Below are positions 2,952 to 23,245 of a stretch of 64,000 bases of DNA, in pieces. Under the pieces are notes generated by a model, which saw only the letters and a program-made list of their open reading frames with translations, did not search any database and had not been told where the DNA came from. Numbering within the stretch: the stretch's first letter is position 1; each line of letters starts with the position of its first letter. This DNA comes from a virus. The translations under genes and the position numbers were made by a program. The stretch lies in IMG/VR virus record IMGVR_UViG_3300042888_000931, positions 1-64,000 of that record. One strand, given 5' to 3'.

Positions 2952-2953
2952 TG

Positions 2954-2959: not shown

Positions 2960-2995
2960 AGATATTACCAAAATAATCTATAGAAAAGAGCATTT

Positions 2996-3235
2996 ATGTC
3001 AGAAGAATTAACTCCTTGGCAAAAATACAAACAAAGTTTGGGAGAAACTAGACCCTGGGATCTTGTCAATCCTGAAACACAGTGGGCTACTTCCGAGGTA
3101 GCAGAAGAAAGATACTCTATTTGTAAGGGCTGTCCAGAACTAATAAAATTAACCAAACAGTGTAAAAAATGTGGATGTTTCATGGCAGCAAAAACAAAAC
3201 TAGAAAAGGCAGTATGCCCACTAGGTAAGTGGTAA
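2996..3235 (+). CDS. Small zinc-binding phage protein
   Basis: A 79-residue protein with six cysteines, C43-x2-C46, C56-x2-C59-x-C61 and C74, ending in a CP-x-GKW tail. The spacing predicts a zinc-ribbon-like fold. Similar short proteins with a C-terminal CKKCGCFM...CPLGKW pattern occur in several environmental phages without a known function. The start has an AAAGAG SD and a promoter upstream. Its stop overlaps the next gene's possible GTG. It may bind nucleic acid or act as a small regulatory or assembly factor. The function is not known. Confidence 0.7.
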   Translation: MSEELTPWQKYKQSLGETRPWDLVNPETQWATSEVAEERYSICKGCPELIKLTKQCKKCGCFMAAKTKLEKAVCPLGKW

Positions 3236-3237
3236 AA

Positions 3238-3819
3238 ATGAAACCTCCTTATCTATTAAAAAATGTGTTACCACCAAAAGAACATAGAGAGTTACAAAAT
3301 TTGGCAATGAACTTGTGGTCAACAGACAAAACAACTTTTGATGAAGGATTTGGAAGGCATCAGTGGGCAATCTGGGATAACACACACAGAGAAAATGTAG
3401 AACCACTTAGAAAATTTCATGAGATGCTTTTGCCATTAGCAAAAGAAGAGTTTGAGTCAGAAACACTTTTGCCATCATGGTCTCTTATAAGTATTTATGA
3501 AACTGATAAGGCAAGGCTGTGGAAACATAAAGATGATAATGCTTGTACATATCATATGAACTATACTATTTTTCATAAGACACCCTGGGATTTTTATGTA
3601 GAGGGAGAAAGGTTTCAGCCAGAAGAAAACGATATGGTTATATCATATGGAAATGATCAAGAGCACTGGAGAGAAGAGTTTCCCAATCCAGAAACAAATT
3701 TAGTTGCAAATGCGTTTTTCTTTTATACAGAGCCAGATCACTGGTTTTTTACTGAAGGCCCTCAATATCTATATACCAATATTCGTGCTAAAAAAGATGA
3801 AGACTCTCCGAGTATGTAG
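3238..3819 (+). CDS. 2OG-Fe(II) oxygenase-like (cupin-fold) protein
   Basis: About 193 residues from ATG 3238; a GTG at 3229 would add three residues. The sequence LWKHKDDNACTYHMNYTIF carries an HxD pair (H-K-D). A distal His lies in NDQEHWREEF, and strands are arranged as in double-stranded beta-helix oxygenases. The C-terminal Arg/Lys that would bind 2-oxoglutarate is not obvious, so it is a divergent member or a cupin relative. It differs from the seven oxygenases downstream, which share a (N/D)DYEGGE motif missing here. Its neighbours are the glycosyltransferase and epimerase, suggesting a part in modifying a protein or sugar. Confidence 0.55.
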   Translation: MKPPYLLKNVLPPKEHRELQNLAMNLWSTDKTTFDEGFGRHQWAIWDNTHRENVEPLRKFHEMLLPLAKEEFESETLLPSWSLISIYETDKARLWKHKDDNACTYHMNYTIFHKTPWDFYVEGERFQPEENDMVISYGNDQEHWREEFPNPETNLVANAFFFYTEPDHWFFTEGPQYLYTNIRAKKDEDSPSM

Positions 3820-3821
3820 TT

Positions 3822-4856
3822 ATGGGAAATATTTTTTATCAACTTTATCAGCCTTGCGGTTTGTTTAATCAGATAACAAGTTTAGAAACTGCGGTTGGTT
3901 TGTCAAGTAGATATAAAAAACAATTAATATTTTACAACATCAGTAATCCTGCAAATGGAGATTATGGTGGAGCAAGAGTTCCAATTTACTCTGCAAACTA
4001 TAGATATAATGAAAGAAGTCATCTAATTGATGTAGATGTTTTTCCAAATATTTCAGATTTGATGGATTGGGAAAATAAAGATTGCAATATTTTAATAAAT
4101 GATATTGTGGATAGTTTTACTAATGAAGATTTAAAAATAGAAAATTTAATGATGTACTATTCACCTGCGTCAAATGACTATAAAGATACGGAGAGTTACT
4201 TTTCTGAAGGAAGAGAGAGGCTGCTACTAGATAACTACAACAATGTACATTTAAAAAAAACATTGGGGTATTACAGCAGATTTTTTTTAGATCGTGAACC
4301 CTCATTAGATAAAAGTCTATCTTCTGTAAGATTTAAATCAGAATATTATCAACTAGCAGAAAAGATAGCCTTGTCTATTGGACTTTTTAATGGGGCACAC
4401 TTTAGGCTTACAGACCATAAAGGTATGTTTGACCCAGACAGCAACATTTTAGATTCTGGAATTAGCCAAATAGATAATGGCTTGCCTATAGTCATGTGCA
4501 CCGATCAACCAAATAGTGAATTAATAAAAAACTCTTCTTATAGTTATTTGTTATTAGATGACTATATATTGAATAATTTTTATAAAGAGTTTAGAGAGTT
4601 TAAATTTAAAGAAGAGGTTTCATTTGGCATATTAAATAACCTAGTTATGCACTATAGTCAAGAATTTATTGGAAGCCCAGGAAGCACATACACTGGATAC
4701 ATCCATAGAGGATTAAATCAAAAAAGAGATATACAATGGAGAATATTCGGGGAAGAAGAGCATCCACAAGATGGTCCGTACTCCTGGAATGGGTATGACA
4801 ATAAGGATAGTTTAACAAAACAGTGGTGGAGAGAATGGAAGGAATCAAGAATATGA
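3822..4856 (+). CDS. Fucosyltransferase-like glycosyltransferase (putative)
   Basis: A 344-residue protein. The N-terminal PCGLFNQITSLETAVGLS recalls the GxxNQ...E.A...A pattern that opens O-fucosyltransferase and alpha-1,2/1,6-fucosyltransferase folds. The C-terminal EFIGSPGSTYTGYI closely resembles the xFIGxxxSTFSxxI motif that binds the GDP-sugar in those families. In between, PIVMCTDQPNSE looks like the strand-plus-loop of the second Rossmann domain. Such enzymes transfer L-fucose or a similar sugar from a GDP donor to protein or glycan acceptors. The next gene overlaps its stop (ATGA) and encodes an enzyme making GDP-L-galactose, a GDP-L-fucose analogue, which supports a paired role. The acceptor is unknown. 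Confidence 0.55.
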   Translation: MGNIFYQLYQPCGLFNQITSLETAVGLSSRYKKQLIFYNISNPANGDYGGARVPIYSANYRYNERSHLIDVDVFPNISDLMDWENKDCNILINDIVDSFTNEDLKIENLMMYYSPASNDYKDTESYFSEGRERLLLDNYNNVHLKKTLGYYSRFFLDREPSLDKSLSSVRFKSEYYQLAEKIALSIGLFNGAHFRLTDHKGMFDPDSNILDSGISQIDNGLPIVMCTDQPNSELIKNSSYSYLLLDDYILNNFYKEFREFKFKEEVSFGILNNLVMHYSQEFIGSPGSTYTGYIHRGLNQKRDIQWRIFGEEEHPQDGPYSWNGYDNKDSLTKQWWREWKESRI

Positions 4857-5884
4857 AAACAGCATTAGTATTTGGCGCAGGTGGGTTTATAGGAAGCCAT
4901 ATGGTAAAGCGTTTAAAGTCAGAAGGATACTGGGTTCGTGGTGTTGACTTAAAACATCCAGACTTTTCAGAAACACAGGCAGACGAGTTTATTGAAAGAG
5001 ATTTGTCCGTATATGAAAATGTTGAAAAGGTTATTCAGTTTAAAGGATATCAAGGAAACTTCTACCATGAAATTCCTTATCGTTCTATAGATTCATTTGA
5101 CGAGATTTACCAGTTTGCTGCAGATATGGGTGGTGCAGGATATATTTTTACTGGTTTGAACGATTCTCAGATTATGGAAAACTCTGCCTTAATAAACCTC
5201 AATCTTTTAAGAGCACAGTCTAGGCTTAATGAAAAATATGATATTAACAAGACTAAAATATTTTATTCAAGTTCTGCCTGCATGTATCCTGACTACAAGC
5301 AGTTAGATGTCAATAATCCTGGACTTAAAGAATCTGATGCATACCCTGCAGACCCTGACAGCGAGTATGGTTGGGAAAAACTCTTTAGTGAAAGAATGTT
5401 CTTGGCATTTAATAGAAACAATAAGATCCCAGTGGCCATTGCTAGATACCACAATATTTATGGACCAGAAGGAACCTGGGATGGTGGAAAAGAAAAAGCA
5501 CCTGCTGCAATGTGTCGAAAAGTTATACAGGCAGATGGCTTTGTAGAAATTTGGGGGGATGGAGAACAAACCCGTTCATTCCTATACATAGATGAATGCA
5601 TAGAGGCAACAAGAAGACTTATGCAATCAGATTTTACTGGTCCTGTTAATATAGGGTCTGAAGAGATGGTTACTATAAATCAACTGGTTGATATTGCTTG
5701 CAGTATTGAGGGCAAGGTTTTGAGCAAGATGCATATTCCTGGACCTTTGGGAGTTAGAGGAAGAAATTCTAATAATGATTTGGTAAGAGAAAGACTAGGC
5801 TGGGATTACTCAATGTCTCTTAAAGATGGAATTGAAAAAACCTACAACTGGATACTTCAGGAAACAAAAAAGAACCCCTCCTAA
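4853..5884 (+). CDS. GDP-mannose 3,5-epimerase (GME-like SDR epimerase)
   Basis: A 343-residue extended SDR enzyme. The start is ATG 4853, overlapping the previous stop. The NAD-binding GAGGFIGSH is at residues 7-15. The catalytic YxxxK is Y172-K176 in SEYGWEKL. An active-site Cys, C143, lies in SSSACMYP. Many segments match plant-type GDP-mannose 3,5-epimerase: QFAADMGGAGYIFTG, RYHNIYGPEGTWDGGKEKAP, GDGEQTRSF and IPGPLGVRGRNS. The known reaction converts GDP-D-mannose to GDP-L-galactose, with GDP-L-gulose as a side product. The product could feed the adjacent glycosyltransferase. Full length compared with the family (about 350-375). Confidence 0.85.
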   Translation: MKTALVFGAGGFIGSHMVKRLKSEGYWVRGVDLKHPDFSETQADEFIERDLSVYENVEKVIQFKGYQGNFYHEIPYRSIDSFDEIYQFAADMGGAGYIFTGLNDSQIMENSALINLNLLRAQSRLNEKYDINKTKIFYSSSACMYPDYKQLDVNNPGLKESDAYPADPDSEYGWEKLFSERMFLAFNRNNKIPVAIARYHNIYGPEGTWDGGKEKAPAAMCRKVIQADGFVEIWGDGEQTRSFLYIDECIEATRRLMQSDFTGPVNIGSEEMVTINQLVDIACSIEGKVLSKMHIPGPLGVRGRNSNNDLVRERLGWDYSMSLKDGIEKTYNWILQETKKNPS

Positions 5885-10281: not shown

Positions 10282-10322
10282 AAGATAAGTTAATGGGCAG
10301 CCCCCATAAGGAGAATATACAA

Positions 10323-11804
10323 ATGGCAACAAGAATGCAACAGCGCAGAGGTACTGCAGCACAATGGACGGCTGCAAACCCAATTCTAGCAGCAGGTGAA
10401 ATCGGTTTTGAAACAGATACAAGTAAGTTTAAGATGGGTAACGGCTCTTCAACATGGTCTGCCCTAACATATTTTGCTAATGCAACAGAATTAGCAGCAA
10501 TCGTTGATGGAGCACCAGCAGCCCTGAACACTCTCAATGAGTTAGCAGAAGCACTAGGAGACAATCCAGCATTTTTAACAGATATTTCAAACAATCTATC
10601 AAGCCATGCTAACGATACAACACTAATCCATGGTATTGCTGACACAGCACTTCTTGCAACTACAGCAAATGTAGAAGCAGCAAATCAGGCTGCCTCTGGA
10701 GCACTCTCAGAACACGCTGCAGATACTACATCAATCCATGGTATTGCAGACACATCACTTCTTGCAACAACTGCAGATATCACAACACACAATTCAGACA
10801 CAACAGGCGTACATGGTATTGCAGATACATCACTTCTAGCAACTACAGCAAATGTACAAGCAGCAGCAGATAGCGCATCAGCAGCACTTGGAGTACACGC
10901 TTCAGACACAACAGATGTTCATGGAATCGCTGATACTTCACTTCTTGCAACAACAGCAGATATTTCAACACACAACTCAGCAACAGAAAATGTTCACGGA
11001 ATTCTAGATACAGCAGAACTAGTGACACAGTCAGACCTAGTAACCGCACTAGGAAATGCTGCAGTAGATCAGTCAACTCTTGCAGGAGTAGGTATTGACT
11101 GGAACGGAACTTCAGAAGCATTTGACATTGATTCAACTGTAGCAACAAAGACTTACGCAGACGATGCAGTGACAACACACAACTCTGACACAACAAATGT
11201 TCACGGAATTGCAGACACATCACTTCTTGCGACAACTGCAGATGTGGCAGCAGTTACAAAAACCACTCTAGGTCTTGGAAATGTTGACAATACATCAGAT
11301 GCTGACAAGCCAGTTTCAACAGCAACTGTAACAGCAATCGCAACAGCAAAGTCTGAAGCAATTGCAGAAGTAACAGCAGTTATTGATGGTGCACCAAACG
11401 CACTTAACACCCTTAACGAACTTGCTGCAGCACTTGGCGATGATGCTAACTTTGCTTCAACAATTACAACATCACTTGCAGCAAAGGTAGATTCATACAC
11501 ACCAATTACACAAAAGACAGCATCTTATACTCTATCAACGCTAGATCACAGAGATGATTTAATTGAAATGGGTTCAGCATCAGCACTTACATTAACAATT
11601 CCGCTAAATTCATCAATTGCTTACCCAGTAGGAACATCTTTAGATATTCTTCAAACTGGTGCAGGTCAAGTAACGATTGCTGGAGCAGCAGGAGTTACCG
11701 TAAATGCAACACCAGGTCTTAAGTTGAGAACTCAGTGGTCATCTGCAACTCTTTTCAAGAGAGCAGAAAACACATGGGTTGTCTACGGCGATCTAACAGC
11801 GTAA
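10323..11804 (+). CDS. Tail fibre with Mtd-like N-terminus and IHGIADTSLL repeats
   Basis: 493 residues. ATG 10323 is chosen over 10293 because AAGGAG lies 9 nt upstream and the protein then begins ATRMQQRRGTAAQW. The first 50 residues (AGEIGFETDTSKFKMGNGSSTW) match the N-terminal domain of the Bordetella phage tropism determinant and other tail fibres. Then come several copies of a 'SDTT-x-VHGIADTSLLATTAD' unit, NALNTLNELAAALGD segments, and a C-terminal beta domain (about 395-493). The central and last parts are paralogous to residues 93-255 of the 837 protein. Likely receptor-side fibre shaft plus a head domain. Confidence 0.8.
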   Translation: MATRMQQRRGTAAQWTAANPILAAGEIGFETDTSKFKMGNGSSTWSALTYFANATELAAIVDGAPAALNTLNELAEALGDNPAFLTDISNNLSSHANDTTLIHGIADTALLATTANVEAANQAASGALSEHAADTTSIHGIADTSLLATTADITTHNSDTTGVHGIADTSLLATTANVQAAADSASAALGVHASDTTDVHGIADTSLLATTADISTHNSATENVHGILDTAELVTQSDLVTALGNAAVDQSTLAGVGIDWNGTSEAFDIDSTVATKTYADDAVTTHNSDTTNVHGIADTSLLATTADVAAVTKTTLGLGNVDNTSDADKPVSTATVTAIATAKSEAIAEVTAVIDGAPNALNTLNELAAALGDDANFASTITTSLAAKVDSYTPITQKTASYTLSTLDHRDDLIEMGSASALTLTIPLNSSIAYPVGTSLDILQTGAGQVTIAGAAGVTVNATPGLKLRTQWSSATLFKRAENTWVVYGDLTA

Positions 11805-11836: not shown

Positions 11837-12808
11837 ATGGCAGCAGGTAAGAAGATAGGTAAGAAGTCCCAAGCGTCAAATGACTTTTTGGAGCCATTAA
11901 AGCCAGTTATTGGTACTGCAACAAACGTAGGAACTAACAGACCATTTAACAATGGAGCAGCAGTTGTTACATTTTCTTTACCCGCACTTTCCCCTGCTGC
12001 CACATCTTTCACAGTAACAGCAAGCACTGGACAGACAGGAACTGGAGCATCTTCTCCAATCACTGTAGAAGGCATTGCATCAACAGCAACACCAACATTT
12101 ACAGTAAGAGCAACTAATGCAGCAGGAACATCTGCTGCTTCTGATGCATCTAATTCTGTAACAATTACAACAGTTCCAGCAACACCATCTGCACCAACTG
12201 CAACAGCGGGAGTAGATCAAGATACAGTTTCTTGGACAGCACCAGCAAACGGAGGAAGTGCAATCACTTCTTATGTTTGGGCAGCATCAGATGGCAAAAC
12301 TAATTCAACAGCATCAACATCTGTCGCTGTAGGACAAGAAGCAAACACTGCACAGACATACACTGTTCGTGCAATAAATGCTAACGGAACATCTGCAACA
12401 TCTCCAGCATCCAATAACGTAACCACAATTGCTCCATTCTTTCCCCCATTCTTCCCCCCATTCTTCCCATTCTTCCCTCCATTTTTCCCACCATTCTTCC
12501 CGTTCTTCCCACCATTTTTCCCACCATTCTTCCCATTCTTCCCACCGTTCTTCCCATTCTTCCCTTACTTCCCATTCTTCCCACCGTTCTTCCCATTCTT
12601 CCCGTTCTTCCCACCGTTCTTCCCACCTTACTTCCCATTCTTTCCACCGTTCTTCCCATTCTTCCCTTACTTCCCATTCTTCCCACCGTTCTTCCCGTTC
12701 TTCCCGTTCTTCCCACCGTTCTTCCCACCAACATTCTCATCAAGTTCAGGACCAAAGTGTACAGCCAACTATTGCTGGCAGTGCCCATGTCAACCATGCG
12801 CTTGTTAA
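11837..12808 (+). CDS. Fibronectin-like protein with Phe/Pro-only domain and Cys tail
   Basis: 323 residues with an AGGAGAT SD. Residues about 25-195 are two fibronectin type III-like domains (PSAPTATAGVDQDTVSWTAP... AINANGTSATSPAS). Residues about 198-300 consist almost entirely of Phe and Pro, with a few Tyr, in FFPP/FFP units. The last 19 residues hold six cysteines (KC..YC..CPC..CAC). A shorter Phe/Pro stretch and Cys tail also end the 837 fibre. No precedent is known to me for such a long aromatic/proline tract. It is probably virion-exposed and may act as an adhesive or as a substrate for the prolyl-hydroxylase-like enzymes in the next operon. Confidence 0.7.
   Translation: MAAGKKIGKKSQASNDFLEPLKPVIGTATNVGTNRPFNNGAAVVTFSLPALSPAATSFTVTASTGQTGTGASSPITVEGIASTATPTFTVRATNAAGTSAASDASNSVTITTVPATPSAPTATAGVDQDTVSWTAPANGGSAITSYVWAASDGKTNSTASTSVAVGQEANTAQTYTVRAINANGTSATSPASNNVTTIAPFFPPFFPPFFPFFPPFFPPFFPFFPPFFPPFFPFFPPFFPFFPYFPFFPPFFPFFPFFPPFFPPYFPFFPPFFPFFPYFPFFPPFFPFFPFFPPFFPPTFSSSSGPKCTANYCWQCPCQPCAC
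12430..12735 (+). repeat. Phe/Pro-coding low-complexity repeat (TTC TTC CCA CCx)
   Basis: About 300 bases of pyrimidine-rich + strand made of 9- and 12-nt units (ttcttcccattc, ttcttcccaccg). A block of roughly 100 nt containing the Tyr variant (ccttacttcccattc) occurs twice, around 12552 and 12655, showing internal duplication. The strand asymmetry is extreme, with almost no G. Confidence 0.85.
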
Positions 12809-12887: not shown

Positions 12888-13316
12888 ATGTACGCAATAC
12901 TTGTAAAAGATAACAATAACATCTACGATGTGCTTGGTGTGCTTAAGACTGATGAAGAAATAAGAACTAAACTTGACTCAGAGTGGGATAAGAACTTGCC
13001 TATAATCGGTATGGATGTAAATGCTCACAAAGCAACAGCAACTAGAGGTGCAACATGGAATGGCACATCTTTTGACGGAACTGCAAACGAAGGATTTTTT
13101 GCATTATCACAAGAAGAAAAAGATGCCTATAAGCAATATGCATTTTTATGTGACAACAAGATAATCTACAGACTTGCTCTAGACGCTGCTGATGAAAAGA
13201 CAGCAATGTACGATGCAGCATTTTCTAGCGAAGTAATATTGGTAAAGTGTACCTTTGTTACTGCTGGAGTAAAAGTTGTATACGACGAAGCAACCAGAGA
13301 ATTCACAGCCGCTTAA
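12888..13316 (+). CDS. Unknown protein, possibly fibre-related
   Basis: 142 residues, with its own promoter and an AAAGGAG SD. It has an N-terminal mixed alpha/beta part and a segment ATRGATWNGTSFDGTANEGFF resembling the 'GA.WdG..F' tail-fibre-assembly pattern. A helical middle (EEKDAYKQYAFLC) follows, then a beta C-terminus. There are no catalytic motifs. It sits between the Phe/Pro fibre and the oxygenase operon, so it could be a fibre-assembly factor. This is a weak inference. Confidence 0.45.
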   Translation: MYAILVKDNNNIYDVLGVLKTDEEIRTKLDSEWDKNLPIIGMDVNAHKATATRGATWNGTSFDGTANEGFFALSQEEKDAYKQYAFLCDNKIIYRLALDAADEKTAMYDAAFSSEVILVKCTFVTAGVKVVYDEATREFTAA

Positions 13317-13375: not shown

Positions 13376-14089
13376 ATGACAACTTATGATGAAAATGAAA
13401 CCCCTTGGTTTACCAAGGATAGATCAGAAACAGCCTTAAATAGATATCCATCAAAAACTATTGGAAACAATATTTTAGTTGAAAACCCAGCATTAGGAAT
13501 TAACCTATACAGAAATGTGTTTTCAAAAGAAGATTCTGAAAGATACATAAAAATATTAGAGTCTAATCTAGGTGGCAATGGAAAATACAAATGGTCAGAA
13601 GCAAAAGTAACTAACTCAGATGTGCCAATTAAAAAGGCTAGAGATGCTGTAGACTTTAGATTTAAGCAAGAAAATTTAGGTCCAAGAGACGAAGATAACT
13701 CTGAACTAATTGACCTACACGAAGAGATCTATCAAAAGTTAAAGTTCTGTGTTGACGATTATGCACGGTACTGGGGAATCAACGTAGTATATTATGAAGC
13801 ATTTAACTTTGTAAAGTATGAAGGAGAAGGAACCCACTTCAACATTCATGCCGATCACGGTCCAATGTATAATTGCACGGTCTCTGCTGTTATTTATATA
13901 AATGAAGACTACGAAGGTGGAGAGATTAGATTTCCAAGAATGGACAATTATACTCATAGTCCAAAAATAGGAGACATTGTTCTTTGCCCATCAAACTATA
14001 TTTATGAGCATGCTTCATTGCCTATGAAAGAGGGAACAAAGTATTGTGTTGTCGTAATGACAGACATTAATGAACTAGGACACAAGTAG
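13376..14089 (+). CDS. 2OG-Fe(II) oxygenase 1 (prolyl-4-hydroxylase-like)
   Basis: 237 residues. The double-stranded beta-helix core carries H158-A-D160 in NIHADHG and the distal H212 in YEHASLP, with GTKY supplying a possible 2-oxoglutarate-binding Lys. Between them are the hallmark AVIYINEDYEGGEIRF and KIGDIVLCPS. P4H-type enzymes use O2 and 2-oxoglutarate to hydroxylate peptide prolines or small molecules. It is the first gene of the oxygenase operon. Its stop overlaps the next GTG. The closest relative in the window appears to be the 14866 protein (both have a DHG after HxD and an ESNLG segment), so these are duplicates. Confidence 0.85.
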   Translation: MTTYDENETPWFTKDRSETALNRYPSKTIGNNILVENPALGINLYRNVFSKEDSERYIKILESNLGGNGKYKWSEAKVTNSDVPIKKARDAVDFRFKQENLGPRDEDNSELIDLHEEIYQKLKFCVDDYARYWGINVVYYEAFNFVKYEGEGTHFNIHADHGPMYNCTVSAVIYINEDYEGGEIRFPRMDNYTHSPKIGDIVLCPSNYIYEHASLPMKEGTKYCVVVMTDINELGHK

Positions 14090-14856
14090 TGTCTTTAGTC
14101 GCTAAGTTCAGATCCTTTAGACCCTGGCTAGATAAAGAGAATATCTCTACACCAGTACCAACACAAAAAGAAATGCCAGATTGGTATAAAAACGCAGACA
14201 GATTTGCTAAAATGCCAAACGGAGAATACTATAAAGCACCAAAAGAAGTTTGTCCATTTCCCAAAGAAGGAACAACAGACGACTATGGAAAGATACCTAC
14301 ATGGAAGGCGTGTCCTGCAATTATGGATGCGTTTGCAACTGGTTATGTGTTTAAAACTCCTTGCGACCTAACATTTGCTAAAAATTCTCAGGGGATAATT
14401 AATGTTACAATTGATGATCCTAAATATAGAGACTTCTGTACACAAAGACCACCAATGCCACAGTTTGAACATCCAAAAGGATATTACCAGTACCACTTTG
14501 CCTGGAGTTCTCCATGGGGGCTAGAATTACCAGAAGGATATAGTGCATTATTTATGACTCCAATGAATAGGTTTGATCTGCCATTTTTAAATACTACTGG
14601 AGTTGTTGATTCTGACAAGGTACACCTTCTTGGAAGTTTTCCATTTTTTATAGCAGAGGGCTGGGAAGGAACGCTTCCTGCTGGAACCCCATACTTGCAA
14701 GTTCTTCCATTTAAAAGAGAAAACTGGGAACATGAGATAGAGATTTTAGGTCAGTCTGATATATATGGTAAAATGGTAGATAACGCAAAATTCTATCGGC
14801 AACCTGATGGAGGAGTGTACATTAAAAAAGTTTGGTCCCGTAGAGAATATAAATAG
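14089..14856 (+). CDS. DUF6065-like cupin protein 1
   Basis: 255 residues from a GTG that overlaps the previous stop. Notable segments are the N-terminal STPVPTQKEMPDWYKN, MTPMNRFDLPFL, FFIAEGWEGTLPAGTPYLQVLPF and KVWSRREYK. The pattern of a 'NP.N/MNRFD' strand followed by 'F..E.W.G.LPAGTP..Q..P' fits the DUF6065 type of phage and bacterial beta-barrel proteins, often found near oxygenases. No metal ligand set is evident. The protein at 15549 looks like a relative. It could be a partner or substrate carrier for the oxygenases. Function unknown. Confidence 0.6.
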   Translation: MSLVAKFRSFRPWLDKENISTPVPTQKEMPDWYKNADRFAKMPNGEYYKAPKEVCPFPKEGTTDDYGKIPTWKACPAIMDAFATGYVFKTPCDLTFAKNSQGIINVTIDDPKYRDFCTQRPPMPQFEHPKGYYQYHFAWSSPWGLELPEGYSALFMTPMNRFDLPFLNTTGVVDSDKVHLLGSFPFFIAEGWEGTLPAGTPYLQVLPFKRENWEHEIEILGQSDIYGKMVDNAKFYRQPDGGVYIKKVWSRREYK

Positions 14857-14865
14857 GAGAATAAA

Positions 14866-15549
14866 ATGCAAACATGGACAGAAAAAGAAGACCTTGGCAA
14901 TGGAATCATCTGCTATAGAAATGTAATCAAAAAAGAGTTTGACGTAATAAACAGACTTGAGTCCAACTTGGGATTAGTTGCTGACTACGGAGTGTTGTCT
15001 GCAGATGGCAAAAGATATCACTGGATGCCAGCCTATGTTGGATACCAGCAACTTATGCCAGACTATAGAGACTGCGTTGATTTTAAGTTTAAAAAAACAG
15101 ACATAGAATTAGACAAAAGCGAAGAGTCCTTAAATCTACAGGCATTGTGGCAAGACATTTATGATGCACAACATGCAGCAGTAGAAGATTATAGAAAAGA
15201 CTACAACATTATGCCACTTAAATACTGGGAGGCTTTTAACTTTATCAAGTATGGTCCAGGTCAGCACTTTATGGAGCACCATGACCACGGATATTCTTAC
15301 AACTGCACACTATCTTTAGTTGCATACGTAAATGACGACTATGATGGCGGAGAGTTATTCTTTAGACTGCAAGGACTAAACATTAAGCCACAGGCTGGAG
15401 ATTTGTACATCTTCCCATCTAATTTTATGTATCCTCATCAGGCTATGCCAGTTCACTCTGGAACAAAGTATTCTATTGTAACAATGTTAGACTATAGCAA
15501 GAAGTATCATACACCAGATATGTATGATCCAAAGTGGGACAATGAGTAA
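14866..15549 (+). CDS. 2OG-Fe(II) oxygenase 2 (prolyl-4-hydroxylase-like)
   Basis: 227 residues with an AGGAGAAT SD. H138-H-D140 lies in MEHHDHGYS, the core YVNDDYDGGELFF follows, then KPQAGDLYIFPSNFMYPH supplies the distal His and GTKYS the 2-oxoglutarate-binding Lys. It is strongly similar in layout to oxygenase 1. The N-terminal KEDLGNGIICYRNVIKKEF matches the 'hp.nv.s.ee' opening of phage P4H-like proteins. The stop overlaps the next ATG (TAATG), linking it to the second DUF6065-like protein. The repeat of oxygenase plus DUF6065-like pairs suggests duplication of a two-gene unit. Confidence 0.85.
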   Translation: MQTWTEKEDLGNGIICYRNVIKKEFDVINRLESNLGLVADYGVLSADGKRYHWMPAYVGYQQLMPDYRDCVDFKFKKTDIELDKSEESLNLQALWQDIYDAQHAAVEDYRKDYNIMPLKYWEAFNFIKYGPGQHFMEHHDHGYSYNCTLSLVAYVNDDYDGGELFFRLQGLNIKPQAGDLYIFPSNFMYPHQAMPVHSGTKYSIVTMLDYSKKYHTPDMYDPKWDNE

Positions 15550-16265
15550 TGCTAAATATATCAGTAGAAAGGATGCAAGGTAGTAATTTTAATATTAGTC
15601 CAATGTCTATTAAAAGAGATTGGATGGACCTTACATCTGAACACCATGCATATAGATGTTTTCCAGTAACACAGGCAAACGTTATTGGATGGAATCTTAC
15701 TTGCACAGAAGATATTGAGTTTGAGTGGGATGGTATAAATGATCAAACAGATCAGCATGTAACAATATTTAATCCACAAGGTTCTTATGCTGGTAGAGGT
15801 CAGTCTTCTATAAGTTTAAATACTAGTTTAGTTTTTAGAACAGATCCAGAAATTAGCATCTGGACAATTAATCCAGTAAACTATTTTAGCGAAGACTTTG
15901 AGACAATGTCTAACCTGGTTAGCACATCTTTTTATCCCAATCCACTACCACTTGCCATTAGAGCACGAAAAGCAAATCAAAGAGTAGTCATAAAAGCAGG
16001 TACTCCAATAGCAACGATTATTCCTATATCTCTAACAAACTTAAATAACACTACTATAGAGGTTGTTGAATATAGAGATGACGACAGGTCAAAGGAAAAC
16101 GCAAACAGATCCTACGGTGAAGCAGCACAAGAAGTAAACAAGTCTGGACAATGGACAGATTGGTATAGAGATGCTATTAACGAAAAGGGAGAAAGTTTAG
16201 GTTCTCACGAAGTAAAAGCATTAAAACTTTCAGTTAAAGATAACACGAATGGTGATACAATATGA
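15549..16265 (+). CDS. DUF6065-like cupin protein 2
   Basis: 238 residues, start in TAATG with the previous gene. Segments such as WTINPVNYFSEDFETMSNLV, SFYPNPLPLAIRARKANQRV and IKAGTPIATIIPISL reproduce the 'NP.N.F...G...T.f.P.p.p....... P.G.P.A.i.P' layout of the 14089 protein and the DUF6065 family. The C-terminus (KENANRSYGEAAQEVNKSGQ) is helical. It is sandwiched between two oxygenases, with an ATGA overlap downstream. No enzymatic motif is visible. Confidence 0.6.
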   Translation: MLNISVERMQGSNFNISPMSIKRDWMDLTSEHHAYRCFPVTQANVIGWNLTCTEDIEFEWDGINDQTDQHVTIFNPQGSYAGRGQSSISLNTSLVFRTDPEISIWTINPVNYFSEDFETMSNLVSTSFYPNPLPLAIRARKANQRVVIKAGTPIATIIPISLTNLNNTTIEVVEYRDDDRSKENANRSYGEAAQEVNKSGQWTDWYRDAINEKGESLGSHEVKALKLSVKDNTNGDTI

Positions 16266-16936
16266 ACATGGATGAATACAAAGTAGTACAAAGAAAGCCA
16301 TCAATGACGCCATCAGGCTGGTTTGGTAACAGCAAGGATATGATTGTTGAATTAGAAAATTTTATGACACAACAAGAAATAGAGTTTCTAGAAAAGGCTG
16401 CAAAGTCATTAACAATTTGGGATGTTACTGAAAGCCATGTTAATGAAAATGGAACTGTCGTATATGAAGCAAGTTATTGGAAAGACAGGGTTGCTACTAG
16501 TCCTACTCTAGATAAGAATGATCCATCGATTGCTCCAATTATTGCAGGTCTGTTTGAAAGACTAAAGCCAATAGTTGAAGAGTTCTACAAGGTAAAGGTT
16601 ATTCCTACTGGAACAACCATTGTTAGATGGCTTCCTGGTCAGTTCCAGAAGCCTCATGCAGACAAAGAACTGCATGAAGGTCCAGATGCTGGAACTCCAA
16701 ATGATTTTCCAAACTACGACCTTTCTAGTTTGTTCTATTTGAATGATGATTATGAGGGTGGAGAGTTATACTTCCCATTACAAGATGTTAAGTTTAAACC
16801 TAAAAAAGGTGCTGCTTACTTTTTTCCAGGGGATATGAATTATATTCACGGAGTAACAGAGATTAAGAGTGGTATCAGATACACCTGCCCATTCTTCTGG
16901 GAAATTACAGAGCATACGGGAGATAGAAAGCCATGA
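16262..16936 (+). CDS. 2OG-Fe(II) oxygenase 3
   Basis: 224 residues; ATG 16262 overlaps the previous stop, and a second ATG is two codons later. The iron site is H-A-D in QKPHADKELHEG with a distal His in YIHGVTEIKSGIRYT, whose Arg fits the 2-oxoglutarate site. The core SLFYLNDDYEGGELYFPLQDV is classic P4H-like, and KPKKGAAYFFPGD precedes the distal His. All residues needed for activity are visible. It is joined by ATGA to the next oxygenase. Confidence 0.85.
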   Translation: MNMDEYKVVQRKPSMTPSGWFGNSKDMIVELENFMTQQEIEFLEKAAKSLTIWDVTESHVNENGTVVYEASYWKDRVATSPTLDKNDPSIAPIIAGLFERLKPIVEEFYKVKVIPTGTTIVRWLPGQFQKPHADKELHEGPDAGTPNDFPNYDLSSLFYLNDDYEGGELYFPLQDVKFKPKKGAAYFFPGDMNYIHGVTEIKSGIRYTCPFFWEITEHTGDRKP

Positions 16937-17805
16937 CAGAGTCTCTTAATGCAGTTGAAATATATCCAAAGATTTTTGTATATAAGGGTCTCTTTAAAGA
17001 CATAAATCACACCTATAGTCTTTTAAAAGAATCAGAAGGACAGGAAGATGGACTTTTTAGTCCTTGGACGAGTTGGTCTCACTTTGGAGAATATATTAAT
17101 CCAATATTTAAAAACCATAATGATAATTTAAAAATAGAACATGTTCAAACTATAAAAACTTCAACAGAAAAACAAGAAGAACATAAGCAAGTTCTTTTAG
17201 AAATTCTTAATAATTTTATGATAGCAACAAAAGACTATATTGCAAAAAACAATGTTGACTTTGACGAAGATAGGCTTGTCCCAGGTATTAAAGATCAAAG
17301 AGGAAATGATGTTAAAGAATGGGTATATACTGGACCATCTATAGCAAGATACAAGGTAGACATTGAAGACCCACTGGCAATGACATATCATACAGACTAC
17401 ATAAGAGAGCCAATAGTAAGCCCAGGACACAAGTTTGCAATTACTGCTTTAACATACTTTAATGACGATTACCACGGTGGAGAAATTGATTTTATAGCAA
17501 ATGGAGAAGCGTATATGTATAAGCCAGAGGCTGGAGACCTTCTCGTTTTTCCATCAGGTCATCCAGAATTTCTAATGTCTGAAAAGTCTATATACCTTCA
17601 TGGAGTAATGCCTGCAGAGCATAACTCAAAGTATCTTTCAAGAATGTACTGGACAAAATACTCTACTGGTTCACCAGAGTGGCTTGAGAACGAAGAAAGA
17701 CTTGGCAAGGAAAAGTGGCAGGAAGAATGGAAAGACATTATGCAAAAGTTTAGAGATGAGAATCCTAATAGAAATAATGCTGATAAAGAAAGAAGGATAC
17801 AATGA
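16933..17805 (+). CDS. 2OG-Fe(II) oxygenase 4
   Basis: 290 residues, the longest of the set. The iron site is H-T-D in MTYHTDYIREP, the core ALTYFNDDYHGGEIDFIANG follows, then KPEAGDLLVFPSGHPEF and a distal His in YLHGVMPAEHNSKY. The N-terminal 130 residues differ from the other copies, with a charged helical part (KTSTEKQEEHKQVLLEILN) that may set substrate choice. The C-terminal 40 residues are highly charged. ATGA overlaps occur at both ends. Confidence 0.85.
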   Translation: MTESLNAVEIYPKIFVYKGLFKDINHTYSLLKESEGQEDGLFSPWTSWSHFGEYINPIFKNHNDNLKIEHVQTIKTSTEKQEEHKQVLLEILNNFMIATKDYIAKNNVDFDEDRLVPGIKDQRGNDVKEWVYTGPSIARYKVDIEDPLAMTYHTDYIREPIVSPGHKFAITALTYFNDDYHGGEIDFIANGEAYMYKPEAGDLLVFPSGHPEFLMSEKSIYLHGVMPAEHNSKYLSRMYWTKYSTGSPEWLENEERLGKEKWQEEWKDIMQKFRDENPNRNNADKERRIQ

Positions 17806-18548
17806 ATCTAGATAATAAAAAGAGAATAACTAAGGACATAGTTGTTTATGAAAACTTTATTGATGCAGAAACTGCTGCAAAACTTGTAAAGGTTTTAGAC
17901 AAGCATGTAGAAGTTGGCACAATAACCTGGATGCCTATATCTTTCTATGAGTCTTATTCCTCAGTATTGCCACAAGACAATGATGAGCATGTAGAAAACG
18001 AAGGATTGCCAAGCGACATATTTTCACAAATGAAGCAAGGAATTATTGAGGCAGTTGCAAGTGTTCACGATCTTGACCCAAAGATAATTTCTCAAATTGG
18101 ATACCATACGCAAAAGTGGGAGCCAGGAGCATATGCAAGAAAGCATTCCGATAACACTGATGAGCATGGAAAATCTGGTGCTTTTACAAGAAGCAGGTAT
18201 GCAGCATTCTTATATTTGAATGATGACTTTGAAGGTGGAATGTTGCAGTTCCCAGACCAAGACATAAGTCTTCAACCTAAAGTTGGAATGCTTGCTGCAT
18301 TTGACGGGGGATTTAACAATATGCACGAAGTAACCCTTATCACTAGTGGAGTTAGATACACCATTGGTTCATTCTGGGATGATCGTGAAGAGGATGCTTA
18401 CCCTCAAGAAGTAAGAGATGCTTGGGCTGAAGAGATGAAGGCCACTAGAGCACAACAGGAAATTGAAAGAGCAGAGTGGCAAGAGTTGCTGAAGCAAGGC
18501 TGGAAACTTGATGCTGATGGAAATAAATATAAGGCGGAGGACCTGTAA
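17802..18548 (+). CDS. 2OG-Fe(II) oxygenase 5
   Basis: 248 residues. The iron site is H-S-D in ARKHSDNTDEHG, the core AAFLYLNDDFEGGMLQFPDQD follows, and the distal His with Arg lies in NMHEVTLITSGVRYTIGSFW. The last 45 residues form a charged helix (WAEEMKATRAQQEIERAEWQ). The LQFPDQDI...PKVGML order matches soluble P4H-like phage enzymes. It is linked upstream by ATGA, and its stop is directly followed by the GTG of the next gene. Confidence 0.85.
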   Translation: MNLDNKKRITKDIVVYENFIDAETAAKLVKVLDKHVEVGTITWMPISFYESYSSVLPQDNDEHVENEGLPSDIFSQMKQGIIEAVASVHDLDPKIISQIGYHTQKWEPGAYARKHSDNTDEHGKSGAFTRSRYAAFLYLNDDFEGGMLQFPDQDISLQPKVGMLAAFDGGFNNMHEVTLITSGVRYTIGSFWDDREEDAYPQEVRDAWAEEMKATRAQQEIERAEWQELLKQGWKLDADGNKYKAEDL

Positions 18549-19211
18549 GTGGAAGTTTTTTTAAAAAAAGAGTTTGATGATGCTGGATATAGTACTGAGG
18601 TTTTTCATGAACATGTTTTGTTTATAGAAGACTTTATCAGTGCTGAAGAACTTGATACTATTTTAAAAATAATTGAAACGACCCCAAACGAAGACTGGAT
18701 GATAGAGTATACTAAAAATCTTGCTAGATTCTGCATGGAAAAGTTTGGAAGAGATGATGTAGATAATCTTGTTGCAGAAGGAAAGTTTGAGATTACTCAA
18801 AATTGGGCAGACAAGAATTTAAACATTGTTACTGAGCCGATAAGCGTAACCCTTCAAGGAAGACTTGGAAGACTTCTGGCACTTGCAGACCCATCTCTAG
18901 AACTTGCTGGTTTTGGAACACTACAAAGGATGCAGGGTGGGGTTGAACTAAAGTCTCACACAGACCAGCATACAGATCCATCCATTAGATATGCTGCTAT
19001 ACTATACATTAACGATGACTACAAGGATGGAACTTTATTCTTTAAAAATAAAGAGAATTCAGACTTAAGGCCAAAGCCAGGAACATTGCTTATTTTCCCA
19101 GGTAACGAAGAATATGAGCATGGAGTAAGGCCTGTAGGAGAAGGACCCATAAGATATGTTACTGTAGGCTTTATGAAGGTAACAGGTTTTTATGAGAAAA
19201 ATAAATACTAA
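18549..19211 (+). CDS. 2OG-Fe(II) oxygenase 6
   Basis: 220 residues from GTG 18549, placed directly after the previous stop with GGCGGAGG as SD. The iron site is H-T-D in KSHTDQHTDP, the core AAILYINDDYKDGTLFFKNK follows, and the distal His with Arg lies in YEHGVRPVGEGPIRYVTVGF. The usual EGGE is KDGT here, so the loop differs, but the ligand set is intact. The N-terminal half (FIEDFISAEELDTILKIIE) is the helical cap common to these enzymes. Confidence 0.85.
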   Translation: MEVFLKKEFDDAGYSTEVFHEHVLFIEDFISAEELDTILKIIETTPNEDWMIEYTKNLARFCMEKFGRDDVDNLVAEGKFEITQNWADKNLNIVTEPISVTLQGRLGRLLALADPSLELAGFGTLQRMQGGVELKSHTDQHTDPSIRYAAILYINDDYKDGTLFFKNKENSDLRPKPGTLLIFPGNEEYEHGVRPVGEGPIRYVTVGFMKVTGFYEKNKY

Positions 19212-19222
19212 GGAGATACAAA

Positions 19223-19852
19223 ATGGACAGAGAAATACTTGAGGAAAAGGTTTATTATTACACAAATGTAATTGAAGACCCAAAGAAACTTGTTGAGGCA
19301 ATTGAAAATGACAACAAGGATGAATGGGGAGAGTGGATGGCATGCAGCGGAGAGCACTATGTCTATGGAACAGACAAGAGCATATCTTTAACAGCAGAGT
19401 CAAACGAAAAAGATAAGTATATTTATAACACTCTACAAAAGGCATTTGATGATGTAGCAAGAGACTACGCTGCAGCACAAGGTATTACAGAAGAGCCAAA
19501 ACTGTTTCCAATGTATCCTATCAAGAAGTACCAGCCTGGAACGTTTATGGGTGCACACTTTGATCAGCAAGAAGGAGACGAAAGACTAAAGGTTTCTTTT
19601 GTTATGTACCTTAATGATGATTACGAAGGCGGAGAAATATCTTTCACTATTGCTTCTCCAGACGGAGTTTTACAGAATCCAAGCCCAGAAGCAGATTTTG
19701 CAGAAGCACAGCATAATGGAAATTATTCATTTGCAGTAAAGCCAAAGGCTGGAAGCATCATTGTGTTCCCACCATCACCACCATACCATCACACTGCACA
19801 CCTAGTTAAAAGCGGTGAAAAGATCATGGTCCCACAACACTGGATTCACTAG
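19223..19852 (+). CDS. 2OG-Fe(II) oxygenase 7
   Basis: 209 residues with an AAGGAGAT SD. The iron site is H-F-D in GAHFDQQEGDE, followed by VMYLNDDYEGGEISF. An insertion of about 30 residues (SPDGVLQNPSPEADFAEAQH) precedes KPKAGSIIVFP. The distal His is in YHHTAHLVKSGEKIMVPQHW, with Lys for 2-oxoglutarate. It ends the run of seven oxygenases; the methyltransferase begins one base after its stop. Confidence 0.85.
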   Translation: MDREILEEKVYYYTNVIEDPKKLVEAIENDNKDEWGEWMACSGEHYVYGTDKSISLTAESNEKDKYIYNTLQKAFDDVARDYAAAQGITEEPKLFPMYPIKKYQPGTFMGAHFDQQEGDERLKVSFVMYLNDDYEGGEISFTIASPDGVLQNPSPEADFAEAQHNGNYSFAVKPKAGSIIVFPPSPPYHHTAHLVKSGEKIMVPQHWIH

Positions 19853-19853
19853 T

Positions 19854-20447
19854 ATGACCCAGGGCTATCAAAATTTTAGCGAACAAGAACAGTTTGTTTT
19901 AAATTTACTTGATAACAAAAAAGAAGGATACTATGTAGAACTTGGTGCTGCCCATTCAAAAAATGGAAGCAATACTTACAGACTTGAAAATGAGTTTGAC
20001 TGGAAGGGTGTTTCTTTTGAAATTGTTCCAGAACTACACAAAGAAGTTTCTGAGAATAGGAAAAACCCTTGTATCCTTGGGGATGCTACAAAGTTTGACT
20101 ATATCAAATACTTTGAAGAAAACAACTTTCCAAACCAGATAGATTACTTGCAGGTAGATATTGATGCTGGATACCAAACAGATGGTAGACCTGCTGGTAA
20201 CCACTATACAACTCTACATGGTTTGATTGCTGTACCTCTAAATAAGTATAGATTTACAGTTATAACTTTTGAGCACGATTCAAACATGTACTGGAGAAAT
20301 ACGGCAATGCGTGATGCACAAAGAGAAATTCTTGACTCGTTGGGCTACTCTCTAGTTGTTAGACAAATCCATGAAGACTGGTGGGTAGACCCAACAGCAA
20401 TTGGACTAGAAAAATATAGAGAGTACTTTAAATGGGACACCCTATAA
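19854..20447 (+). CDS. FkbM-like SAM-dependent methyltransferase (putative)
   Basis: 197 residues from ATG 19854, which directly follows the previous stop (the frame is open 13 codons further upstream, inside oxygenase 7). YYVELGAAHSKNGSNTYRLE matches the SAM-binding first motif of FkbM-type methyltransferases (VDvGA..G..S). GVSFEIVPELHKEV gives the acidic ribose-binding position, and QIDYLQVDIDAG the later motif. FkbM-type enzymes O-methylate sugars and other small molecules. In this operon it could cap a sugar or a hydroxylated residue made by its neighbours. It overlaps the next gene by 16 nt. Confidence 0.65.
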   Translation: MTQGYQNFSEQEQFVLNLLDNKKEGYYVELGAAHSKNGSNTYRLENEFDWKGVSFEIVPELHKEVSENRKNPCILGDATKFDYIKYFEENNFPNQIDYLQVDIDAGYQTDGRPAGNHYTTLHGLIAVPLNKYRFTVITFEHDSNMYWRNTAMRDAQREILDSLGYSLVVRQIHEDWWVDPTAIGLEKYREYFKWDTL

Positions 20448-21112
20448 ACAATAAGACAGCAATTGTTACAGGAGCCAGCAAAGGTGTTGGATACGCAACA
20501 GTAAAACTTTTATCTGAAAATGGATATAAAGTTATTGCTGTTTCAAGAGACCTCTCTAAAGTTTCAGAACTTGTTTCTGAGAATGTTGAAATGTATGAAT
20601 TAGACATTACAAATTCAGAAGAAATTAAACGCTTTCACGAACACTATAAAGACATAACTTTAGATCTTTTAGTAAACAATGCTGGTGGAGGCTCAGGGCC
20701 AACATATATAATTAATGAGACTATGGACAACTTTAGAAGAGCGTATGATATAAATGTTTCTGGTCCAATGTATCTTTCCCAACTTTTTGTTCCATCTATG
20801 AAAAAGTCAGAGTCTGCAACAATCATTTTCGTTAGTTCTATTGGTGGAAAATATCCATACAGATCTGGTGGAAATTACACAAACGCTAAAAGAGGAATGA
20901 TGGCACTTGTAGACACCATGAGACTAGAGTTCCCAGAGTACGGAATTAAGGTTACTGAAATTTGTCCAGGTACAATTGACACACAAATAGAAAAAAGAGA
21001 AATTGCCATTACTGCTGAAGACATGGCTGAGTCTATAAGATGGGTAGCAAGTTTGCCAAAGCATGTCAACATAAATCATATAGAGATAAATCATATACTT
21101 AGTGGTAAATAA
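20432..21112 (+). CDS. Short-chain dehydrogenase/reductase (SDR)
   Basis: 226 residues, classical SDR. The cofactor motif TGASKGVG is near residues 14-21, with NNAGGG at about 86-91. The catalytic Ser is in FVSSIGG and the catalytic Tyr/Lys in NYTNAKRG (YxxxK). ICPGTIDT sits where the PG motif is expected. These enzymes oxidise or reduce alcohol/ketone groups with NAD(P). It is the last gene of the oxygenase operon and is followed by a terminator. It might process a hydroxylated or sugar product. The substrate cannot be read from sequence. Confidence 0.8.
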   Translation: MGHPINNKTAIVTGASKGVGYATVKLLSENGYKVIAVSRDLSKVSELVSENVEMYELDITNSEEIKRFHEHYKDITLDLLVNNAGGGSGPTYIINETMDNFRRAYDINVSGPMYLSQLFVPSMKKSESATIIFVSSIGGKYPYRSGGNYTNAKRGMMALVDTMRLEFPEYGIKVTEICPGTIDTQIEKREIAITAEDMAESIRWVASLPKHVNINHIEINHILSGK

Positions 21113-21211: not shown

Positions 21212-23245
21212 ATGTCAGATTTTTTTAGTTTTAAACTTCCAGAGGACTTCGTAGAAAAGTACAAGAGCCAAGAAAGCCCATTTGGGTTTAAGGATGCAGC
21301 AGAAAACTCACTTGGAGAAATTACTTTTATTCGTACATATTCTCGAATGAAGGAAGATGGAACTAAGGAGCGTTGGCATGAAGTTTGTCGTCGTGTAATC
21401 GAGGGTATGTATTCAGTTCAGAAGAATCATGCTAAAGAAAACCGTTTGCCATGGAATGACTACAAGGCTCAGAAGTCAGCACAAGAAGCATTCCAAAGAA
21501 TGTTTGAATTGAAGTGGACACCACCAGGACGAGGTATGTGGGCATTTGGAACTCCTATGACTATGGAGAAGAAGAACTCAGCAGCACTACAGAACTGTGC
21601 CATGGTCTCCACAAAGGACCTTGATAAGAATGATCCAGGAGCCCTATTTGCCTGGGTTATGGATGCATTGATGCTTGGCATTGGTGTAGGGTTTGACACA
21701 GTGGGACAGGATAAGAATTTTACAATCTATGCTCCAACAGAGCCAGAAGAGGTGTTCGAAATTCCAGACACTCGTGAAGGCTGGGTCGAGTCAGTCAGAC
21801 TTCTAATCAACTCATATTTGAGAGCAAACCAGAGCATTCAGAAGTTTAACTATGATTTGATCAGACCTCTTGGAGCCCCTATCAAGGGCTTTGGAGGCGT
21901 TGCATCAGGACCTGCACCTCTTATCAAGTTGCACGACCAGATAGACCGTGTAATCGGCTCCAGAGGCGGAGAAACACTAGACTCTCGTGCTATCGTAGAC
22001 TTGGTAAACCTTATTGGTACCTGCGTGGTATCAGGCAATGTTCGCAGATCAGCAACTCTTGCTTTAGGTAATGCAGGTGATGAGACATTCATGAATCTAA
22101 AGAATGCAGAACTATTCCCAGAGCGTAACTCGTTTGACCCAGACAATCCAGGTTGGGCCTGGATGTCAAACAATTCTATTTCAGCAGAAGTAGGAACAAA
22201 GTACGAAGACTATGTAGATTTAATTACGGAAAACGGAGAACCAGGTTTTATCTGGCTAGATGTTGCTCGTAATTATGGACGACTAAAGGATGCGCCAGAC
22301 GGTAAGGATTATCGTGTGATGGGATTTAACCCATGTGCGGAGCAGCCATTGGAATCATACGAACTATGTACACTTGTAGAAGTGCACTTGAATCGTCATG
22401 AATCTAAGGAAGACTTCCTGCGTACCCTTAAGTTTGCATACCTTTATGGAAAGACCGTAACACTTGTTCCAACACACTGGCCACAAACAAACGGTATCAT
22501 GCAGCGCAACCGTCGTATTGGTACGTCACTAACAGGTATAGCATCCTTTGCAGATCAAAAGGGTTTGCCAATTGTTCGTGAGTGGATGGATGAGGGATAC
22601 AACAAGATCCGTCACTATGACCACCAGTATTCAGAATGGCTTTGTGTTCGTGAATCAATTCGTGTAACAACAGTTAAGCCATCAGGATCAGTTTCAATTC
22701 TTTCTGGTGCAACTCCTGGAGTTCACTGGGGACCTGGAGGAAACTTCTTCCTTCGTGCAGTTCGATTTGGAAACACAGATCCAATGATGCACTTGTTCAA
22801 AGCAGCAGGGTACACAATTGAAGATGACGTAGTATCAGCAAACACCTCAGTAGTCTACTTCCCAATCAAGTCAGGTCATCCAAGATCTGAAAAGGATGTA
22901 ACATTGTTTGAGAAGATTGCACTTGCTGCAACTGCTCAGAAGTACTGGTCAGATAATGGTGTTTCTGTAACTCTATCCTTTGATAAGGAAACAGAGTCAA
23001 AGCATGTTGTTCCAGCACTTCACATGTACGAGGGACAACTAAAGGCAGTCTCATTCCTTCCAATGGGAAATACTGTTTATCCTCAGCAACCATATACTCA
23101 GATCACTGAAGAAGAATATGAGTCCTATATCGGCAAGTTGAAGCACATTGATTTCTCTGCTATCTATGATGGAGCAGAAAATCTTGAGGCTCAAGGCGAG
23201 ATGTACTGCACAACAGATTACTGTGAAATTAAAATAAACAAGTAG
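21212..23245 (+). CDS. nrdJ: Class II (B12-dependent) ribonucleotide reductase
   Basis: 677 residues, resembling the monomeric adenosylcobalamin-dependent ribonucleoside-triphosphate reductases. Recognisable parts are PPGRGMWAFGT, the first active-site Cys in ALQNCAMVST, the radical-site loop NPCAEQPLESYELC, TTVKPSGSVSILSGATPGVHW and a C-terminal redox Cys pair CTTDYC. It makes dNTPs from NTPs without oxygen or a separate small subunit, but needs host adenosylcobalamin. It has its own promoter and lies between the modification operon and the head genes. No B12 riboswitch is visible in its 37-nt leader. Confidence 0.9.
   Translation: MSDFFSFKLPEDFVEKYKSQESPFGFKDAAENSLGEITFIRTYSRMKEDGTKERWHEVCRRVIEGMYSVQKNHAKENRLPWNDYKAQKSAQEAFQRMFELKWTPPGRGMWAFGTPMTMEKKNSAALQNCAMVSTKDLDKNDPGALFAWVMDALMLGIGVGFDTVGQDKNFTIYAPTEPEEVFEIPDTREGWVESVRLLINSYLRANQSIQKFNYDLIRPLGAPIKGFGGVASGPAPLIKLHDQIDRVIGSRGGETLDSRAIVDLVNLIGTCVVSGNVRRSATLALGNAGDETFMNLKNAELFPERNSFDPDNPGWAWMSNNSISAEVGTKYEDYVDLITENGEPGFIWLDVARNYGRLKDAPDGKDYRVMGFNPCAEQPLESYELCTLVEVHLNRHESKEDFLRTLKFAYLYGKTVTLVPTHWPQTNGIMQRNRRIGTSLTGIASFADQKGLPIVREWMDEGYNKIRHYDHQYSEWLCVRESIRVTTVKPSGSVSILSGATPGVHWGPGGNFFLRAVRFGNTDPMMHLFKAAGYTIEDDVVSANTSVVYFPIKSGHPRSEKDVTLFEKIALAATAQKYWSDNGVSVTLSFDKETESKHVVPALHMYEGQLKAVSFLPMGNTVYPQQPYTQITEEEYESYIGKLKHIDFSAIYDGAENLEAQGEMYCTTDYCEIKINK

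Follow-up and report, generated by a model that had tools for sequence, protein, structure and literature searches.

Genes for 2-oxoglutarate (2OG)-dependent Fe(II) oxygenases are widespread among aquatic phages and still lack an explanation. In the virus PBCV-1 both a prolyl 4-hydroxylase, vCPH, and hydroxyproline have been described (Eriksson 1999, as cited in PMC9301287), and the Synechococcus phage S-SCSM1 encodes 24 2OG oxygenases, described as uncommon and of uninvestigated function, with a part in host metabolism suggested (PMC9602691). Nanopelagicales phages carry a variable island with tail fibre and collagen-like proteins, in a report in which the word 'oxygenase' is absent (PMC10202952). 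Here we analyse a 64,000-nucleotide stretch of viral DNA (the window), which is part of the 90,067-base IMG/VR virus record IMGVR_UViG_3300042888_000931. It holds seven predicted 2OG oxygenase genes, OX1 to OX7, and comparison of related contigs strongly indicates that the presence of this cassette tracks the type of repeat in the protein of a neighbouring gene, FFP14.

Seven oxygenase genes and a repeat protein

Nine tightly spaced open reading frames (ORFs) occupy positions 13376-19852. In a Pfam profile search seven of them score 34-56 bits against PF13640, for which the gathering cut-off is 27, and in alignments all seven carry the H-x-D...H motif and the K/R, with H-H-D as the first motif of OX2. 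By profile match and intact predicted iron and 2OG site, OX1-OX7 are assigned to the 2OG-Fe(II) oxygenase superfamily. The loops after (N/D)D(Y/F) read EGGE in OX1, OX3 and OX7, DGGE in OX2, HGGE in OX4, EGGM in OX5 and KDGT in OX6. An earlier note on this DNA had proposed seven full-length oxygenases with these motifs and diverged loops, and both points held; it had also placed the seven in a row, which is right as to their number but not their continuity, as they are seven of nine genes with two others, D1 and D2, interposed. The array and the repeat gene, all on the plus strand, are as follows.

11837-12808, +: FFP14, with Fn3-like domains, FFPP/FFP repeats and a Cys-rich tail (weak fn3 and PKD_6 matches)
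12437-12730, +: FFPP/FFP repeat block of FFP14 (98 residues: 53 F, 42 P, 3 Y)
13376-14089, +: OX1, 2OG-Fe(II) oxygenase (PF13640 E=5e-10; H158, D160, H212 and K222 kept in 60-61 of 61)
14089-14856, +: D1, phrog_7084 (DUF6065-like) protein, not an oxygenase (phrog_7084 E=2e-34)
14866-15549, +: OX2, 2OG-Fe(II) oxygenase, sister of OX1 (PF13640 E=1e-14; ligands in 64 of 64)
15549-16265, +: D2, DUF6065 protein, not an oxygenase (PF19541 E=6e-31; phrog_7084 E=8e-10)
16262-16936, +: OX3, 2OG-Fe(II) oxygenase (PF13640 E=1e-9; modelled and compared by Foldseek, below)
16933-17805, +: OX4, 2OG-Fe(II) oxygenase (PF13640 E=5e-8; ligands in 53 of 53)
17802-18548, +: OX5, 2OG-Fe(II) oxygenase (PF13640 E=8e-9; ligands in 60 of 60)
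18549-19211, +: OX6, 2OG-Fe(II) oxygenase (PF13640 E=1e-11; ligands in 56 of 56)
19223-19852, +: OX7, 2OG-Fe(II) oxygenase (PF13640 E=6e-11; H-D-H in 57 of 57)

Translational coupling, also proposed earlier, fits overlaps of 1 nt at OX1/D1 and OX2/D2 and of 4 nt (ATGA) at D2/OX3, OX3/OX4 and OX4/OX5, together with the direct abutment of OX5 and OX6; D1/OX2 and OX6/OX7 are separated by gaps of 9-11 nt. D1 and D2 are predicted to have an accessory role. An AlphaFold2 (AF2) model of D1, of low confidence (pLDDT 65), resembles the dUTPase/dCTP deaminase fold of trimeric dUTPases; its top Foldseek matches are all dUTPase-like, the best at E=2e-3 and all at E>0.001. A search for bacterial relatives of D2 returned a single 5.3-kb contig of a metagenome-assembled genome.

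FFP14, just upstream of the array, is the most informative feature of the region and was overlooked in the earlier note. Homologues of FFP14 in the same slot keep its layout of Fn3-like domains, repeat block and Cys-rich tail. The proline codons of the block are mixed (CCA 26, CCG 10, CCT 4, CCC 2), so the repeat is more than a simple DNA copy, which suggests selection acting on the protein. FFP14 had no match in the phage collection, and the window had no DNA match among cultured phages. Some Fn3-repeat proteins end after the repeat in a domain that looks by eye like a Hint or intein type (L132 7846-9168, L281 2511-4124 and L218 4048-5253).

Co-occurrence of the cassette with FF(x)PP repeats

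Scans of IMG/VR viral contigs with OX2 and D1 yielded about 130 related contigs. To avoid circularity, scans that use no oxygenase query were also run, with FFPPFFPPFFP DNA, with the HGIADT fibre motif and with a motif of ribonucleotide reductase (RNR). The contigs are mostly fragments, the locus sets share members, and related phages do not count as independent observations. Around the repeat genes found by the FFPPFFPPFFP DNA scan, the density of 2OG genes was 5.4-7.8 per 10 kb at 0-6 kb downstream and 0-0.5 over the same distance upstream. The HGIADT scan gave 37 usable loci, with at least two oxygenases within 7 kb in 19 of 20 FF(x)P loci versus 1 of 17 without the repeat (p=2e-8, without phylogenetic correction). 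Taking the fibre and RNR scans only, the corresponding counts were 14/14 versus 2/14 for at least two oxygenases in 8 kb (p=6e-6) and 18/19 versus 4/16 for at least one in 3 kb (p=4e-5).

The slot between the Fn3-repeat gene and the RNR gene held 4-9 PF13640 oxygenases in all 68 FF(x)PP loci, many of which stem from the OX2 and D1 scans and were thus selected for the cassette, and exactly seven in 48; among loci with other repeats the count was 0 of 13. One FFPP locus seemingly without oxygenases, L228, carries the array elsewhere in its own record. On an RNR tree, repeat and cassette each change 11 times, and four independent, well-supported pairs all agree. Three loci whose RNR is 97-98% identical to that of the window (L270, L304 and L357) have GAFGAFGAF repeats, which lack proline, and zero oxygenases in the slot. 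The slot of L281 (RNR 85%, portal 74%), also with GAF repeats, is likewise free of them. These GAF loci share flanking gene order with the window; the 73-kb record of L304 has no PF13640 gene, and other GAF records hold a few elsewhere. The link to fibre repeats at which the earlier note had hinted is strongly borne out by these comparisons. That note would have counted against its reading any related phages that retain only one or two of the genes but still have the repeats; the relatives lacking the cassette had lost or swapped FF(x)PP, an outcome that favours it.

Orthologous cassettes also occur in divergent phages whose repeat in this slot is of the GFFAPPGFFSPP type, and many HGIADT-scan loci first scored as repeat-less turned out to have GFFAPPGFFSPP repeats there, with cassettes too. 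SPF/TPF loci mostly hold 1-3 phrog_2696-like genes whose products show the pattern H-x-[DE]...H...R; these may represent a second oxygenase family paired with a second repeat type. Homology of this family to the OX proteins was not shown by hhalign (probability 0.5% and 11%), and a comparison with cyanophage 2OG proteins was suggestive (E=3e-4, probability 41%). Members with H-x-[DE]...GHPH...RIT motifs lie in the oxygenase slot at L484 2083-3371, L457 3086-4377 and L409 4379-6280. At L270, L304 and L281, where the GAF repeats lack proline and the oxygenases are missing, genes of the D1-like phrog_7084 family are still present, so that this family seems to go with the Fn3-repeat protein itself.

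Within the roughly 130 contigs the order OX1-D1-OX2-D2-OX3-(OX4)-OX5-OX6-OX7 is retained in nearly all; OX4 is absent from some relatives, and OX4 and OX7 are the most variable members. Orthologues of each OX gene are mostly 70-97% identical versus 18-43% between paralogues. Across ungapped orthologues, of which each gene has 53-64, the residues that bind iron and 2OG do not vary, and median dN/dS, the ratio of non-synonymous to synonymous substitution rates, runs from 0.03 (OX1) to 0.20 (OX4), with 0.04 for the RNR. Because gene order, ligands and low dN/dS are all maintained, the array is not a chance assembly. Each of the related records of 28-89 kb contains 6-9 PF13640 genes, by a count of the kind that the earlier note had proposed. 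In the phylogeny it had also proposed, a quick-search tree of 123 proteins with long branches, OX-group orthologues occur in divergent cassettes, even in phages with a different repeat; OX1 and OX2 (about 42% identity) look like the only clear sister pair, and the S-SCSM1 proteins branch outside the OX1-OX7 groups. Each OX gene is, on this comparison, its own old orthologous group under purifying selection, which agrees with the earlier preference for distinct roles over gene dosage. A recent tandem duplication, as the term tandem array had implied, is rejected: the paralogues are too dissimilar, their orthologous groups predate the phage lineages, and the series is broken by D1 and D2.

Proposed substrate and alternatives

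Profile comparison with the PDB matches OX2 and OX3 to prolyl 4-hydroxylases and PiuC, OX3 also to prolyl 3-hydroxylase 1 and OX2 to lysyl hydroxylases. The AF2 model of OX3 (pLDDT 81, pTM 0.80) has the Chlorella virus prolyl hydroxylase vCPH as its top Foldseek match (E=8e-11), followed by the Bacillus and Chlamydomonas prolyl 4-hydroxylases (P4Hs; E about 1e-10) and then, not far off, by PiuC, PHD2 and LH3. The modelled OX3 therefore has a prolyl-4-hydroxylase-like double-stranded beta-helix fold, though not exclusively so, since PiuC is also close; the resemblance favours a peptide hydroxylase and does not fix the substrate. In a scan covering neither OX3 nor OX5, OX2 and OX7 scored 24-31 bits against the PKHD/PiuC equivalog NCBIfam (PRK05467), well below its cut-off of 143.

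We consider it reasonably probable that OX1-OX7, together with D1 and D2, make up a module of the tail locus that hydroxylates the FFPP repeat of FFP14, likeliest on proline. FFP14 would be synthesised and several of the Fe(II)/2OG oxygenases would then hydroxylate its FFPPFFP repeat; the enzymes might split the prolines among themselves (the first or second of PP, that of FP) or act in successive steps. The modified repeat would enter the virion tail, making FFP14 a putative virion protein as well as the candidate substrate, and could there affect adsorption or stability. Repeat and enzymes would be retained and swapped as one unit, from the fibre gene to the RNR gene. Proline is preferred to the abundant phenylalanine because GAF repeats, which have phenylalanine and no proline, go without oxygenases. 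A wider scheme may also apply, but we hold it only tentatively and think it could well fail: tail low-complexity repeats (FFPP, GFFAPP, SPF, GAF) would be interchangeable, each with its own modification module, that of FFPP comprising about seven non-redundant oxygenases that write a defined hydroxylation pattern, and would be swapped jointly between close relatives, perhaps changing receptor binding.

Several points weigh against hydroxylation of FFP14. With only four supported independent switches, the sign test gives p=0.125, so that the comparison corrected for phylogeny does not by itself reach significance. PiuC and further oxygenases whose substrates differ or are undefined also lie near OX3 in fold. 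D1 is not bound to the oxygenases, since D1-like genes also adjoin GAF repeats. Marine phages whose fibre repeats are Pro-rich and of the RTPFTYQ type mostly lack a PF13640-type gene nearby. The substrate could instead be the Mtd fibre, a glycan or a host protein, and neighbouring genes can be co-exchanged by recombination without any enzyme-substrate relation.

The last of these points underlies the best surviving alternative, which we judge unlikely: fibre and cassette would be a recombination module whose oxygenases target another tail or host protein. Tail loci are recombination hot spots, the repeat gene and the cassette are adjacent so that any exchange moves both, and the small number of well-supported switches suits this explanation too. 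It fits less well with phages that have GFFAPP repeats and distant cassettes, in which the pairing is preserved, and with fib11, fib12 and the Mtd fibre, which occur in phages with or without the cassette, so that what the cassette follows is the type of repeat and not the tail locus generally.

A less probable alternative is that the oxygenases, the methyltransferase-like protein, a short-chain dehydrogenase (SDR), an epimerase and sulfotransferases tailor a sugar or metabolite. The operon does end with SDR and methyltransferase-like genes, an epimerase gene lies at 4823-5884, and a sulfotransferase and a tryptophan halogenase are encoded elsewhere in the genome; yet many oxygenase-bearing relatives lack the SDR and methyltransferase-like genes, the closest structures to OX3 are mostly protein hydroxylases, and the tie to repeat type is left unexplained. 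Reprogramming of the host through 2OG consumption or altered nitrogen or iron signalling has been put forward for cyanophages (Sullivan 2010, PMC3037559; PMC9602691), and a virus study emphasised PiuC-like matches (PMC13184970), but seven conserved, distinct enzymes, their location among tail genes and their joint absence with the repeat would go unexplained, and we regard this as very improbable. TET/JBP-like oxidation of viral DNA bases, to which a single sub-threshold Tet_JBP match of OX3 (E=0.016) points, is the least credible, given that all seven proteins pass the PF13640 cut-off, that the nearest folds to OX3 are protein hydroxylases and that the cassette sits in the tail locus and not among DNA-metabolism genes.

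A general rule by which any Pro-rich fibre repeat has a 2OG neighbour was considered and is unsupported, as RTPFTYQ loci mostly lack nearby PF13640-type genes, the only type searched for. The viral contigs L365-L395 carry long Pro-rich low-complexity fibre repeats (RTPFTYQARQPGTY...), with PF13640-type genes nearby only sometimes.

Flanking genes, host and known systems

The slot is bordered by the following genes.

10293-11804, +: tail fibre with Mtd_N domain and HGIADT repeats, immediately 5' of FFP14 (Pfam Mtd_N E=9e-14; PHROG tail and minor tail families)
12888-13316, +: small protein between FFP14 and the cassette, variable among the relatives compared (ORF)
19815-20447, +: methyltransferase-like protein, FkbM-like by eye only, without Pfam match; ATG at 19854 is the likelier start; missing from many relatives
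20432-21112, +: SDR, accessory (adh_short E=2e-43); missing from many relatives
21212-23245, +: RNR, class II by eye from sequence; conserved downstream gene

The RNR gene marks the 3' edge of the exchangeable slot and is kept in relatives with and without the cassette. The protein encoded at 3229-3819 of the window matches phrog_2954 (E=1e-12), a PHROG that bears the name ferrochelatase, and has an HKD motif; its gene may be a further oxygenase-like one, which profile comparison did not confirm. A WhiB transcription factor (PF02467 E=8e-12) at L007:17220-17498 (record 81220-81501) indicates that the host is probably actinobacterial; this assignment, and that of a freshwater habitat, draws on WhiB and on general knowledge of such phages and not on sample records. 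Beyond the window the same genome encodes the tryptophan halogenase (PF04820 E=3e-106; L007:13741-15276, record 77741-79276), the sulfotransferase (record 75590-76189) and, on the minus strand, a 693-residue ORF that by eye is catalase-peroxidase (KatG)-like, which is unusual for a phage (L008 about 1921-4002, record 85921-88002).

The Chlorella virus enzyme vCPH has been assayed on proline-rich viral repeat peptides. Like OX3 it is an Fe/2OG enzyme encoded by a virus, and it has the same fold (PDB 5c5t); unlike the window's enzymes, it is a lone enzyme of a eukaryotic virus, outside any ordered multi-enzyme cassette and at about 19% identity. The Bacillus anthracis and Chlamydomonas P4Hs share fold and iron site with OX3 but are single enzymes with other substrates, the Chlamydomonas enzyme having been seen bound to a non-collagen (Ser-Pro)5 repeat (PDB 3gze). 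Haloarcula virus HCTV-8 has a D1 homologue, gp35 (phrog_7084/DUF6065; L259 5860-6693), between tail-fibre/adhesin genes and a class II RNR, and, unlike in the window, no 2OG gene is annotated beside it; D1 homologues thus appear to be a tail-locus family of haloarchaeal tailed viruses as well.

Phage S-SCSM1 resembles the window in its many 2OG genes of low mutual identity, four of which (gp240-243) lie consecutively, directly before tail fibre genes gp244/gp245 (L254 3885-8349), gp245 having long Arg/Pro/Phe-rich repeats. It differs in that its 2OG genes are dispersed genome-wide and belong to several Pfam subfamilies, with no DUF6065 gene seen. Its 24 oxygenases (PMC9602691), four of them consecutive beside tail fibre genes, also show that the earlier note overstated its case in calling seven striking where single oxygenases are common.

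Because the enzyme set goes with the type of repeat, a concrete candidate substrate can be named, and it is open to mass spectrometry. If the proposal is right, the virion of a bacterial virus would undergo multi-enzyme post-translational hydroxylation, exchanged together with its own substrate among relatives. Multi-oxygenase phages and viral prolyl hydroxylases are already known; what is new, within the literature searched, is a conserved seven-gene cassette in a metagenomic phage family, the FFPP protein that accompanies it and the way in which repeat and enzymes switch together.

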